A stretch of 47,407 bases of DNA from Lachnospiraceae bacterium (lineage in GTDB: Bacteria; Bacillota; Clostridia; Lachnospirales; Lachnospiraceae), in the NCBI GenBank assembly GCA_024681775.1, contig JAILAF010000041.1, positions 1-47,407 of the forward strand. The letters run 5' to 3'. The position numbers were made by a program, and so were the translations under genes. The first letter of the stretch is position 1; each line of letters begins with the position of its first letter. A model generated the notes under the pieces. It searched no databases. It saw only the letters and a list, made by a program, of their open reading frames with translations, and had not been told where the DNA came from. Below are positions 17,058 through 19,809 of this stretch, piece by piece.

Positions 17058-17567
17058 TTATCCCTCCGTCCTGGTGATTCCAAGGCTTTCCAGAATCGCC
17101 TCCTGTTTTTCTTCCATCACGATGCGCTCCCCATCCTCCATGTGGTCGTACCCCAGAAGGTGCAGGAGGCTGTGAGCCACGAGAAAGGCCGTCTCCCGCT
17201 TCTCGGAATGCCCATACTCCGCTGCCTGGGAGCGGATCCGGTTCACATTCAGGATCACGTCCCCCAGCACCAGATCTCCGGTGACGGGATCAAAGACCTC
17301 CGGATCCCCCTCCCGGATCTCCGAATAATCCGCAGGTGCGGGATACTCCAGATTGGGGAAGCTCAGCACATCCGTCGCCTGATCGATGGAGCGGTAGTCC
17401 CGGTTGTATTCCCGGATGCCCTCGTTGTCCGTGATCAGCACGTTCACGCAGACATTTTCGTAAGGAAACGCCTCCGATTCCAGCGCCCTGCGGATGACGG
17501 TACCGATGACCTCTTCCGCATCAAAGGAAAACGACGCCTCTACTTCATTCTCAACGTAAAAAGTCAT
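17058..17567 (-). CDS. ybeY: Endoribonuclease YbeY (rRNA maturation factor)
   Basis: The 169-residue zinc-dependent endoribonuclease takes part in 16S rRNA 3'-end maturation and ribosome quality control. The metal-binding motif HxxxHxxGxDH is complete as HSLLHLLGYDH (about residues 132-142), preceded by RSIDQATDVLSFP and GDLVLGDVILN. The start MTFYVENE is chosen over a longer frame because AAGGAG precedes it at the right distance and the length fits the family. It overlaps the end of the PgpH-like gene by 17 bases. The order phoH-pgpH-ybeY is the standard Firmicutes arrangement, but dgkA and era do not follow. Confidence 0.96.
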   Translation of the reverse strand: MTFYVENEVEASFSFDAEEVIGTVIRRALESEAFPYENVCVNVLITDNEGIREYNRDYRSIDQATDVLSFPNLEYPAPADYSEIREGDPEVFDPVTGDLVLGDVILNVNRIRSQAAEYGHSEKRETAFLVAHSLLHLLGYDHMEDGERIVMEEKQEAILESLGITRTEG

Positions 17568-18792
17568 AATACAGTTTCTCCTTCTTGAAGAGGGCCCGCA
17601 TCTGTACCATTTCTCTGACGGAAATGTCACATTCGATAAAGACTCTGCTCTCCTCAAAACGTTTGAAAATGGCATCGATCACCGCATCGGAGTCGATGCT
17701 CTCCGCCCCCTTCTCGTACATGTTCAGGATGCTGGTGATCACCGTCTGGGAGCAAAGCAATACCGCCGCTTCCCTGGTGATGATGGGGCGTTTGGACTTG
17801 CTCACGGCATAGTCCGTGAATTCATTCAGCACTGCCCGCACAGGGGAGGTAAACTGCATCTCATCGTAGAAATCCTGTCTGGCGGGATCCGTCAGAGGCG
17901 TCAGCCTGTGATAATACCCCACGCACTTTAACACCTCTCCGTCCATCCCCAGACTGGATGCGATGCGCTCGCAAAAATACGCGGTGTGAATGCTCTGGAG
18001 ATACCCCTTTTTGTCCTCGGTGCGCATGGCCACCAGCCGCGGGTGCTCCGTGTCGTTCAGATACAGGAAGAGATCCCGGTCATGATACAGCTCTCTGGAG
18101 ACATAGACCCTGGTGCCTGCCAGCAGCAGGAGCGCCGAGATCACCAGATTGGCCGAGGGCAGCAGGAGCTGCTCTACGCTGAGCCTTGCATTGATGGTGA
18201 GCAGGATGCCCCCCAGCTCGCTGACCCAGAGAAATCCCAGCGACAGACAAAAGGGAAGGATGAGCTTTTGCTCCTTGCGAATGGGCAGAAATACCAGGAT
18301 CCCGAAGATCCCGCTGAGCAGATACAGGAAAAACACACCGACCCCGGCGCCCGTCAGCAGGGTGGTAAAGGTCAGAAACACGGTGCCGGCCACCGCGCCG
18401 ATCAGCGGCGCAGAGTACAGCCCCAGGATCACATACACCGGCAAAAAGAGCCAGGTGGTATTGGGCAAAAACAGGCTTAAGGAAGACAAAGCAAGTGCGA
18501 TCAGCGCCGTGATCCAGAAGCGCCCAAGGTGCTTGCTGTCATACTTTGGATCCAGAGGGTGATAGGGAAAATGCAGGCGCACCGCCAGTCCCATCATGCC
18601 AAAGCCCAGGGCGGTAAAGCACAGGATCTGCAGGAGCTCCTGCACCGCGAAGCCCTTCACAAGTCCCAGACCGAAGGCTGCGCCGGTTCCCAGGATCACC
18701 GTGGCGATCTGCGGACCGTACCAGATCAGAGAACGGAAGGAACTGCTTTTTTCACTTTTCTGTTTTGCTCTGTCCTTCGCCTTTCCAGCCAT
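17551..18792 (-). CDS. PgpH-like membrane protein, shortened and with a broken HD motif
   Basis: The 413-residue protein occupies the pgpH (7TM-HD, c-di-AMP phosphodiesterase) position between phoH and ybeY. It keeps about seven membrane segments (residues 25-230) and an HD-domain-like C-terminus ending in FIECDISVREMVQMRALF, similar to the PgpH end. Two differences stand out. The large extracellular domain of PgpH (usually over 700 residues in total) is absent. The HD motif reads YYHRL (H295, R296) instead of YHDIGK, and the following Lys and metal ligands are not seen, although the first His (H269) remains. It may be a catalytically dead sensor; it could also be a distinct family with related topology. 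Confidence 0.75.
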   Translation of the reverse strand: MAGKAKDRAKQKSEKSSSFRSLIWYGPQIATVILGTGAAFGLGLVKGFAVQELLQILCFTALGFGMMGLAVRLHFPYHPLDPKYDSKHLGRFWITALIALALSSLSLFLPNTTWLFLPVYVILGLYSAPLIGAVAGTVFLTFTTLLTGAGVGVFFLYLLSGIFGILVFLPIRKEQKLILPFCLSLGFLWVSELGGILLTINARLSVEQLLLPSANLVISALLLLAGTRVYVSRELYHDRDLFLYLNDTEHPRLVAMRTEDKKGYLQSIHTAYFCERIASSLGMDGEVLKCVGYYHRLTPLTDPARQDFYDEMQFTSPVRAVLNEFTDYAVSKSKRPIITREAAVLLCSQTVITSILNMYEKGAESIDSDAVIDAIFKRFEESRVFIECDISVREMVQMRALFKKEKLYYDFLR

Positions 18793-18795
18793 GGA

Positions 18796-19809
18796 TCACC
18801 GCTTTCTGCCGCCGGAAGCTCTCCTGCGACTGTCCCCGGAGCTTTCCTTCTTCTGACGCTCCTCGTAGGATTCGTATGCTTTGACGATCTGCTGCACCAG
18901 GGGATGGCGCACCACATCGCGATTGGTCAGGGTACAGAAGGCGATGCCCTCCACCCTGGAAAGCACCTTGGTGGCGATATCGAGACCGGACTCCGTACCC
19001 GGCGCCAGATCCTTCTGGGAAGCGTCGCCCGTCACCACCACCTTGGAGCCGAAACCCACTCTGGTGAGGAACATCTTCATCTGGGCAGGGGTGGTATTCT
19101 GCGCCTCATCCAGGATGATGAAGGCATTGTCCAGGGTGCGGCCTCTCATATAGGCGAGCGGAGCCACCTCGATAAGCCCCTTCTCCATGTTTTTCGCAAA
19201 ATTCTCCGCACCCATGATCTGATACAGCGCATCATACAGCGGGCGCAGATAAGGGTCTACCTTGCTCTGGAGATCGCCGGGGAGAAATCCCAGCTTCTCT
19301 CCCGCCTCGATGGCAGGTCTGGTGAGGATGATCCGGCCTACCTCCTCCTGCTTGAAAGCGGTGATGGCCATGGCCATGGCGAGGTAGGTCTTGCCGGTAC
19401 CCGCAGGTCCCAGTCCGAAGGTGATCATGTGGGAGCGGATGGCATCCACATACTTTTTCTGCCCCAGGGTCTTGGGCTTGATGGGCTTGCCGGAGAGGGT
19501 GTGGCAGATCAGGTCTCCCTCGATGACGGAAAGCACGTCTCCCTCGTTTTCCTTACTCATTTCCAGGGCGTAATTCACATTCTGGTCCTGGATCTCGTTT
19601 CCTTTGTTGGAGTAGTTCACCAGCTGCAACACCACATCCTTGGCCCGCAGCACGTTCTCCCGGTAGCCGCTGATCTGAAGCTGTCCGTTCCGGTCCACCA
19701 CCGTCACGTTCAGATCCGCTTCCACCTTTCGGATATTGGCATCATTGCTGCCGAAGAGGTTCCGAAGTTCCTCCGCGGACAGGTCGATCTGAATCGAAAA
19801 TGTCTCCAT
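18796..19809 (-). CDS. phoH: PhoH-like ATPase
   Basis: The 337-residue P-loop protein has Walker A GPAGTGKTYLA (about residues 139-149), the family block RIILTRPAIEAGEKLGFLPG, Walker B AFIILDEAQN and the sensor region VTGDASQ. PhoH proteins bind ATP and are linked to RNA helicase or ribonuclease work with YbeY. The N-terminal 100 residues contain a KH-like RNA-binding region (LNVTVVDRNGQLQISGY). The C-terminus is basic and Ser/Arg-rich. The ATG has AGGAG upstream. It is 10 bases after the pdp gene's stop and 3 bases before the PgpH-like gene, so all are one operon. Confidence 0.96.
   Translation of the reverse strand: METFSIQIDLSAEELRNLFGSNDANIRKVEADLNVTVVDRNGQLQISGYRENVLRAKDVVLQLVNYSNKGNEIQDQNVNYALEMSKENEGDVLSVIEGDLICHTLSGKPIKPKTLGQKKYVDAIRSHMITFGLGPAGTGKTYLAMAMAITAFKQEEVGRIILTRPAIEAGEKLGFLPGDLQSKVDPYLRPLYDALYQIMGAENFAKNMEKGLIEVAPLAYMRGRTLDNAFIILDEAQNTTPAQMKMFLTRVGFGSKVVVTGDASQKDLAPGTESGLDIATKVLSRVEGIAFCTLTNRDVVRHPLVQQIVKAYESYEERQKKESSGDSRRRASGGRKR

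Follow-up and report, generated by a model that had tools for sequence, protein, structure and literature searches.

PgpH, represented in Listeria by Lmo1466 (PDB IDs 4S1B and 4S1C), is a 7TMR-HD phosphodiesterase of c-di-AMP, and its gene canonically lies between phoH and ybeY. GdpP (GGDEF-DHH/DHHA1) is the other membrane c-di-AMP phosphodiesterase but possesses an unrelated catalytic domain, while HDOD domains (PF08668) are non-catalytic output modules with an HD-like fold. According to excerpts of one report (PMC12072042), PgpH is widespread among the Firmicutes but missing from Staphylococcus and Streptococcus, and the combined loss of GdpP and PgpH is toxic to B. subtilis. Our search of the open-access literature (titles and abstract openings, in part the best 12-20 of more matches, with most subscription papers outside its scope) found no degenerate or shortened PgpH in Lachnospiraceae. 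Here we analyse such a protein, its locus and its distribution in the family.

A shortened pgpH-like gene between phoH and ybeY

The window, that is the whole 47,407-nucleotide stretch of DNA analysed here, belongs to a 2.9-Mb draft genome of a Lachnospiraceae bacterium (92% complete) and carries phoH, a pgpH-like gene and ybeY on the minus strand (Table 1). The initial annotation had placed a 413-residue frame in this gene order, and its limits proved exact, with neighbours that Pfam identifies as PhoH and YbeY. PgpH frames in the order, in comparison, mostly measure 670-800 aa. For ybeY we took the start at 17567 as real, replacing the 17675 of the ORF list. Three nucleotides separate the phoH stop from the start of the pgpH-like gene, whose own stop codon (TGA) lies within ybeY.

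Table 1. Features of the pgpH-like locus, with positions in the window.
Feature	Residues	Position	Strand	Basis or remark
phoH (upstream neighbour)		18796-19809	-	PF02562, E 1e-95
pgpH-like gene		17551..18792	-	413 aa, ATG start; N-terminal helix, transmembrane domain and degenerate HD domain, without outer domain
Membrane part	17-235	18088..18744	-	AF2 model, hydropathy, hhalign to canonical PgpH
Degenerate HD domain	239-404	17581..18078	-	Foldseek 4s1c/4s1b, prob 1.00; residue tally
HTAY motif	269-272	17977..17988	-	H269 lies three residues past the lost first His position (Q266)
YYHRL	293-297	17902..17916	-	Replaces YYHDI: H stays, D to R (alignments)
Overlap of pgpH-like gene end and ybeY start		17551..17567	-	17 nt, ATGACTTTTTACGTTGA
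ybeY (downstream neighbour)		17058..17567	-	PF02130, E 7.7e-41

An assembly error as the source of the short frame is ruled out by a full-length, 95% identical copy in another genome (L011; L036, Lachnospiraceae bacterium isolate Tb.RUG.395) and by homologues, found by direct protein search at 35-95% identity, in 23 of the 30 other same-genus genomes (24 of 31 including our own). The seven same-genus genomes without a match are drafts, 75-93% complete. Across the 83 loci compared, phoH lies directly upstream of the short gene in 79 and ybeY directly downstream in 81, some of the missing neighbours being contig ends. The same 17-nt overlap with ybeY is found in 37 of these loci, a 4-nt overlap in 10 more and a gap in 31. 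The three genes are thus tightly packed and are probably co-transcribed, and the recurrence of a fixed overlap suggests that translation of the pgpH-like gene and ybeY may be coupled. Pattern searches between 16900 and 21300 returned 2 promoter-like sites (1.5 expected) and 7 terminator-like sites (3.5 expected, some of ours falling inside the pgpH-like gene), and we draw nothing from either.

Descent from PgpH and excision of the outer domain

At E up to 1 the 413-aa protein has no match in Pfam, and the NCBIfam HDIG model reaches it at E 0.2, under its cut-off. Its ancestry, attributed to PgpH from the start, is nevertheless clear from profile and structure comparisons. Aligned with hhalign, 82 short proteins (alignment A3, which is without L143 and L144) matched five canonical PgpH sequences (A4) at E 1.9e-38 from the membrane domain to near the C-terminus, and the genus members alone still gave E 2.5e-11; in a profile search of the PDB the best match was Listeria Lmo1466/PgpH (4s1b, E 4.7e-27). 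The AF2 model of the 413-aa protein (mean pLDDT 92.2, pTM 0.86) likewise has as its four best Foldseek matches the HD domain of Listeria PgpH (4s1c/4s1b; prob 1.00, E 4e-4 to 9.5e-4, TM-score 0.53-0.60 by target length). Beyond the genus, direct protein searches gave marginal matches only: one to a frame of 354 aa from a different genus (E 5.3e-5), the other to a YYHDIGK-containing frame of 674 aa from a different family in the order (E 4.4e-4). The 413-aa protein is a PgpH homologue, and shares with PgpH the place between phoH and ybeY, the order of the membrane helices, the HD-domain fold and the C-terminal helices. The conserved C-terminus was not counted as evidence for the protein, as its YYDFLR sits over the ybeY start in many loci.

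The large extracellular domain was said to be lacking, and we found no match to 7TMR-HDED (PF07697) either in the 413-aa protein or in its own assembly (92% complete). In the canonical PgpH L035 this outer domain occupies residues 25-234, flanked by the N-terminal helix and helix 238-264, whereas in the short protein its site falls between residues 45 and 50, where four residues (46-49) join two helices. The AF2 helices of the membrane part are 17-45, 50-74, 82-108, 116-125, 129-147, 151-168, 178-200 and 206-235, and hhalign pairing begins at short-protein residue 43 and canonical residue 232. Short and canonical models have eight membrane helices in the same order, with canonical residues ~14-237 absent from the short protein; the canonical model is weak (mean pLDDT 68) and was used for helix order and fold matches alone. 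The outer domain has been excised, and the membrane helices that are left follow the canonical order.

Degeneration of the HD active site

The published HD ligand motif reads H...HD...H...HH...D (in excerpts of PMC8177086). In L035 the conserved His and Asp residues are H457, H486-D487, H507, H522, H546, H547 and D591, and we tallied all eight positions, one beyond the published motif, either H507 or H522 being the extra. At these positions the 413-aa protein has Q266, H295-R296, two deletions, F325, T326 and Q349, leaving H295 as the single HD-site position of the eight. The initial annotation had read YYHRL where YHDIGK was expected and took the HD site to be lost; the canonical form in the order is YYHDIGK, and alignment with PgpH over the metal ligands upholds that view. 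The short protein further differs from PgpH in the deletion of two active-site stretches. PF01966, the HD domain family, does not match the 413-aa protein over its gathering score. At E up to 1 it is found in 32 of the 82 short proteins of the family (best 3.9e-17), and PF08668 in 7 of the 82 (best 5.8e-5), a likeness to HDOD domains that extends to the HD-like fold. Unlike HDOD, the 413-aa protein is PgpH-derived and membrane-bound, and has no PF08668 match.

On one MAFFT alignment of distant sequences, on which all residue counts rest, the ligand set is incomplete in every one of the 85 short proteins examined, and the His of the NPHD loop is absent in all 84 that reach it. Four of the 85 have the HD Asp, all of them among the 61 proteins of other genera (60 loci and L034) and none among the 24 genus members; the last Asp is kept in 48 of these 61 and in 0 of 23 readable genus members, L033 (at a contig end) being uncounted where the residue is missing. 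The second His, at the H295 position, is kept in 17 of the 24 genus members, and in the other 7 the HD pair has become YR or YK. Among the 61, the first His is found in 43, H546 in 14, H522 in 2, H547 in 1 and H507 in none. Decay of the HD site is thus graded across the family, with our genus an extreme case. In four proteins (L132, L136, L138 and L141) the NPHD loop is missing while the first His, the HD pair and the last Asp all survive, and these are possible intermediates of decay.

A bare-motif view might take H269 for the first ligand kept; the alignment places Q266 there and H269 three residues later, and we rejected this assignment. A His at 269 is found in 48 of the 85 short proteins, comprising all 24 in the genus and 24 of the 61 elsewhere. 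Every genus member shares D247, E249, H269, T270, Y272 and K289, at all of which L035 has a different residue, and among the 24 other-genus proteins that have His269 each of the six is found in 79-100% (100% at H269 itself by construction, these proteins having been chosen for it). The genus-invariant H269 may serve in metal or ligand binding of some kind. This constancy, the retention of H295 in 17 of 24 genus members, and the existence of mononuclear HD phosphatases (excerpts of PMC8177086) would all suit a protein that is still a phosphohydrolase, in which H269 and other residues form a shifted metal site acting on c-di-AMP or another nucleotide. Set against this are the absence of the HD Asp from all 24 genus members and of the last Asp from all 23 that reach it, the YR or YK pair in 7 of 24 and the two deleted active-site stretches, and we regard continued hydrolysis as very unlikely.

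Distribution of the short form in the Lachnospiraceae

The short form is no local accident: it occurs across the family, and many other genera no longer have the gene at this place at all. No PgpH outer domain scored over the cut-off in any of 220 family genomes (219 genera; one sub-cut-off match), whereas it did in 81 of 146 genomes of a sample of the order, none of the 81 being Lachnospiraceae. A short-form profile (20 rows, 19 short and one canonical) matched 73 of the 220 genomes at E <= 0.001; nine of these (E 9.1e-4 to 2.5e-6) were set aside, by their weak scores, as probably other HD proteins, and the 64 strong matches lie in frames of 349-470 aa, with no listed match in a frame longer than 600. 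We examined the loci of 60 of the 64, besides those of our own genome, G027 and G031 and leaving out G108 (a strong match), and all 60 contain a 343-470 aa frame after phoH or before ybeY.

Of the 156 genomes without the short gene we sampled 40, and in 38 of them phoH and ybeY adjoin, at a spacing of -133 to 102 nt by the longest ORFs; one of the other two has a gap of 370 nt, and in one no phoH was found there. Presence and absence were mapped on a 96-taxon tree of PhoH+YbeY, in which 57 taxa have the short gene and 39 lack it (5 of 101 having been left out for a missing sequence). The pattern requires 14 changes against a mean of 30.5 for shuffles, and at least 5 of the 14 are forced by well-supported branches in a tree that has no bootstrap and is weak at 48 of its 93 inner branches. 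As the short gene sits at the ancestral place, we read this pattern as probable repeated losses, and since 156 of 220 genomes are without a strong match its role is dispensable in many genera. A link to sporulation, considered after three genes that precede phoH in genomes lacking the short gene had proved to be YqfD, was rejected: YqfD occurs in 40 of the 64 genomes that carry the short gene and in 101 of the 156 that do not (Fisher p 0.76, three sub-cut-off matches left out). Neither our own genome nor G027 has a YqfD match.

The near-constant neighbours of the short gene (phoH in 79 and ybeY in 81 of 83 loci), and the keeping of this order despite the lost enzyme site, could also mean that the protein holds the PhoH/YbeY RNA machinery at the membrane as an anchor or scaffold, its HD-derived domain docking PhoH or YbeY, and is no sensor at all. 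Yet phoH and ybeY abut without it in nearly all of the sampled genomes that lack it, neighbourhood by itself is no proof of contact, and the membrane domain is constrained as well (see below). We judge a pure scaffold to be unlikely.

Purifying selection on the pgpH-like gene

Between our gene and its 95% identical copy dN/dS is 0.059 over the whole length, 0.032 in the HD-like part and 0.067 in the membrane part, and the same genome pair gives 0.043 for phoH and 0.123 for ybeY as yardsticks. Nei-Gojobori ratios fall at 0.037-0.124 in 12 of 13 genus pairs and at 0.28 in the most divergent pair (L010-L012; dN 0.39, dS 1.4), those of the 6 pairs with dS above 1 being rough. All 23 full-length genus copies have open frames, and the 24th, L033, ends at the contig end. 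The gene is under strong purifying selection and is not decaying. Earlier it had been left open whether the protein is a membrane sensor or a relic; the second option fails, because its dN/dS is on a par with those of phoH and ybeY, and the first is compatible with the fold evidence given below. The commonness of complete loss on the 96-taxon tree might still favour a decaying relic on its way to the same end, but with ratios low in all but one of the 13 pairs and in the HD-like part as well, and with 23 unbroken frames, we find such a course hardly credible.

The gene could also be kept for no other purpose than the translational coupling of ybeY, considering the overlap shared by 37 of 83 loci and the last 9 codons, which are identical in the gene pair. 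For this, however, the 3' end alone would suffice, whereas the membrane and HD-like parts are both constrained; ybeY moreover manages without the short gene in many genera, and 31 loci have a gap in place of the overlap. Coupling as the sole reason for retention strikes us as exceedingly improbable.

Turnover of c-di-AMP in the genome and family

Our genome encodes a full-length CdaA-type cyclase (a 290-aa frame with HDGA and RHR), and a diadenylate cyclase (DAC) domain is found in 214 of the 220 family genomes, our own included. The GdpP GGDEF domain is present in 218 of 220 (217 over the cut-off); our own GdpP is known from this domain match alone (E 2.5e-26), and all 8 GdpP frames examined, from other genera and 681-711 aa long, keep DHH. 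By these sequence matches GdpP is likely the hydrolase of c-di-AMP here, and given the toxicity of the double loss to B. subtilis it would be expected to bear this task. Another c-di-AMP phosphodiesterase, DhhP-type or among the 19 HD-domain matches of the genome, may also take part. The initial proposal that c-di-AMP breakdown falls to another enzyme finds support in a full-length cyclase and a GdpP-type GGDEF match in a genome where no PgpH outer domain was found. Since no c-di-AMP riboswitch was found in our genome, c-di-AMP signalling there is deduced from the cyclase and GdpP matches only.

Among the 31 same-genus genomes, one (G008) has a c-di-AMP riboswitch (L152, E 2.5e-12 under stricter filters), and is also one of the seven without a short-protein match. 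In one family genome, G218 (91% complete), neither a GdpP domain nor a diadenylate cyclase was found, and this organism may lack c-di-AMP altogether.

The membrane domain and a proposed function

When the two AF2 models were compared with known structures by Foldseek, both listed the S-component TmRibU. For the 413-aa model the best such match has prob 0.87 (TMt 0.52, E 1.4) and another chain prob 0.47; the low-confidence canonical model gave prob 1.00 (TMt 0.62-0.64, E 0.55-0.59), and also matched ThiT at prob 0.92. With S-component E-values of 0.55-2.2 overall, both models, made separately, show a weak resemblance of the PgpH membrane domain (PF07698 type) to the fold of ECF S-components. 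Excerpts of PMC11109136 report that the membrane domains of 5TMR histidine kinases share the S-component fold and have an extra N-terminal helix, as does the PgpH-like protein; the main text of that paper does not use the terms 7TMR-HD, HD domain, PF07698, c-di-AMP or phosphodiesterase. From the TmRibU matches in both models and the shared fold of the kinase domains, we infer that the PgpH membrane domain may be a receptor of the S-component fold. It differs from the S-component receptors (5TMR-LYT kinases such as BtsS, and TmRibU) in its output domain, and the likeness is structural and weak by E-value. Such a likeness would extend the link between S-components and receptors to 7TMR-HD proteins.

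The explanation that we favour, and consider reasonably probable, is that the gene encodes a selected, PgpH-derived pseudo-phosphodiesterase that acts as a membrane sensor or adaptor, with GdpP the likely hydrolase. In this lineage the outer domain was excised to leave a short hairpin from the N-terminal helix to the membrane domain, two stretches around the HD active site were deleted, and the remaining ligands decayed afterwards to the one, H295, seen in our protein. Our computations show the descent, the losses, the gene neighbourhood and the constraint; inactivity, sensing and the partner are inferred. The product would be expected neither to bind a dinuclear metal nor to hydrolyse c-di-AMP. 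As the most likely mechanism, the weakly S-component-like membrane domain would sense a small molecule or the membrane state, and the HD-derived cytosolic domain, as a docking module, would relay the signal by protein contact to a partner that is presumably PhoH, YbeY, GdpP or CdaA.

In a more specific version the family abandoned PgpH as an enzyme and made of it a 'transceptor-like' membrane receptor, in which an S-component-type ligand-binding domain joined to a dead HD domain with the new HTAY signature informs the RNA machinery of PhoH and YbeY about nutrients or osmotic conditions, or else adjusts GdpP/CdaA, leaving c-di-AMP untouched; this we offer tentatively, and with more doubt than conviction.

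If the Lachnospiraceae, a major family of the gut and rumen, are without PgpH as an enzyme, their c-di-AMP breakdown may rest on GdpP, with no second enzyme such as B. subtilis and Listeria possess. A protein that is dead as an enzyme and yet selected would be a natural case of PgpH sensing split off from catalysis, and what the membrane domain senses therefore becomes testable.
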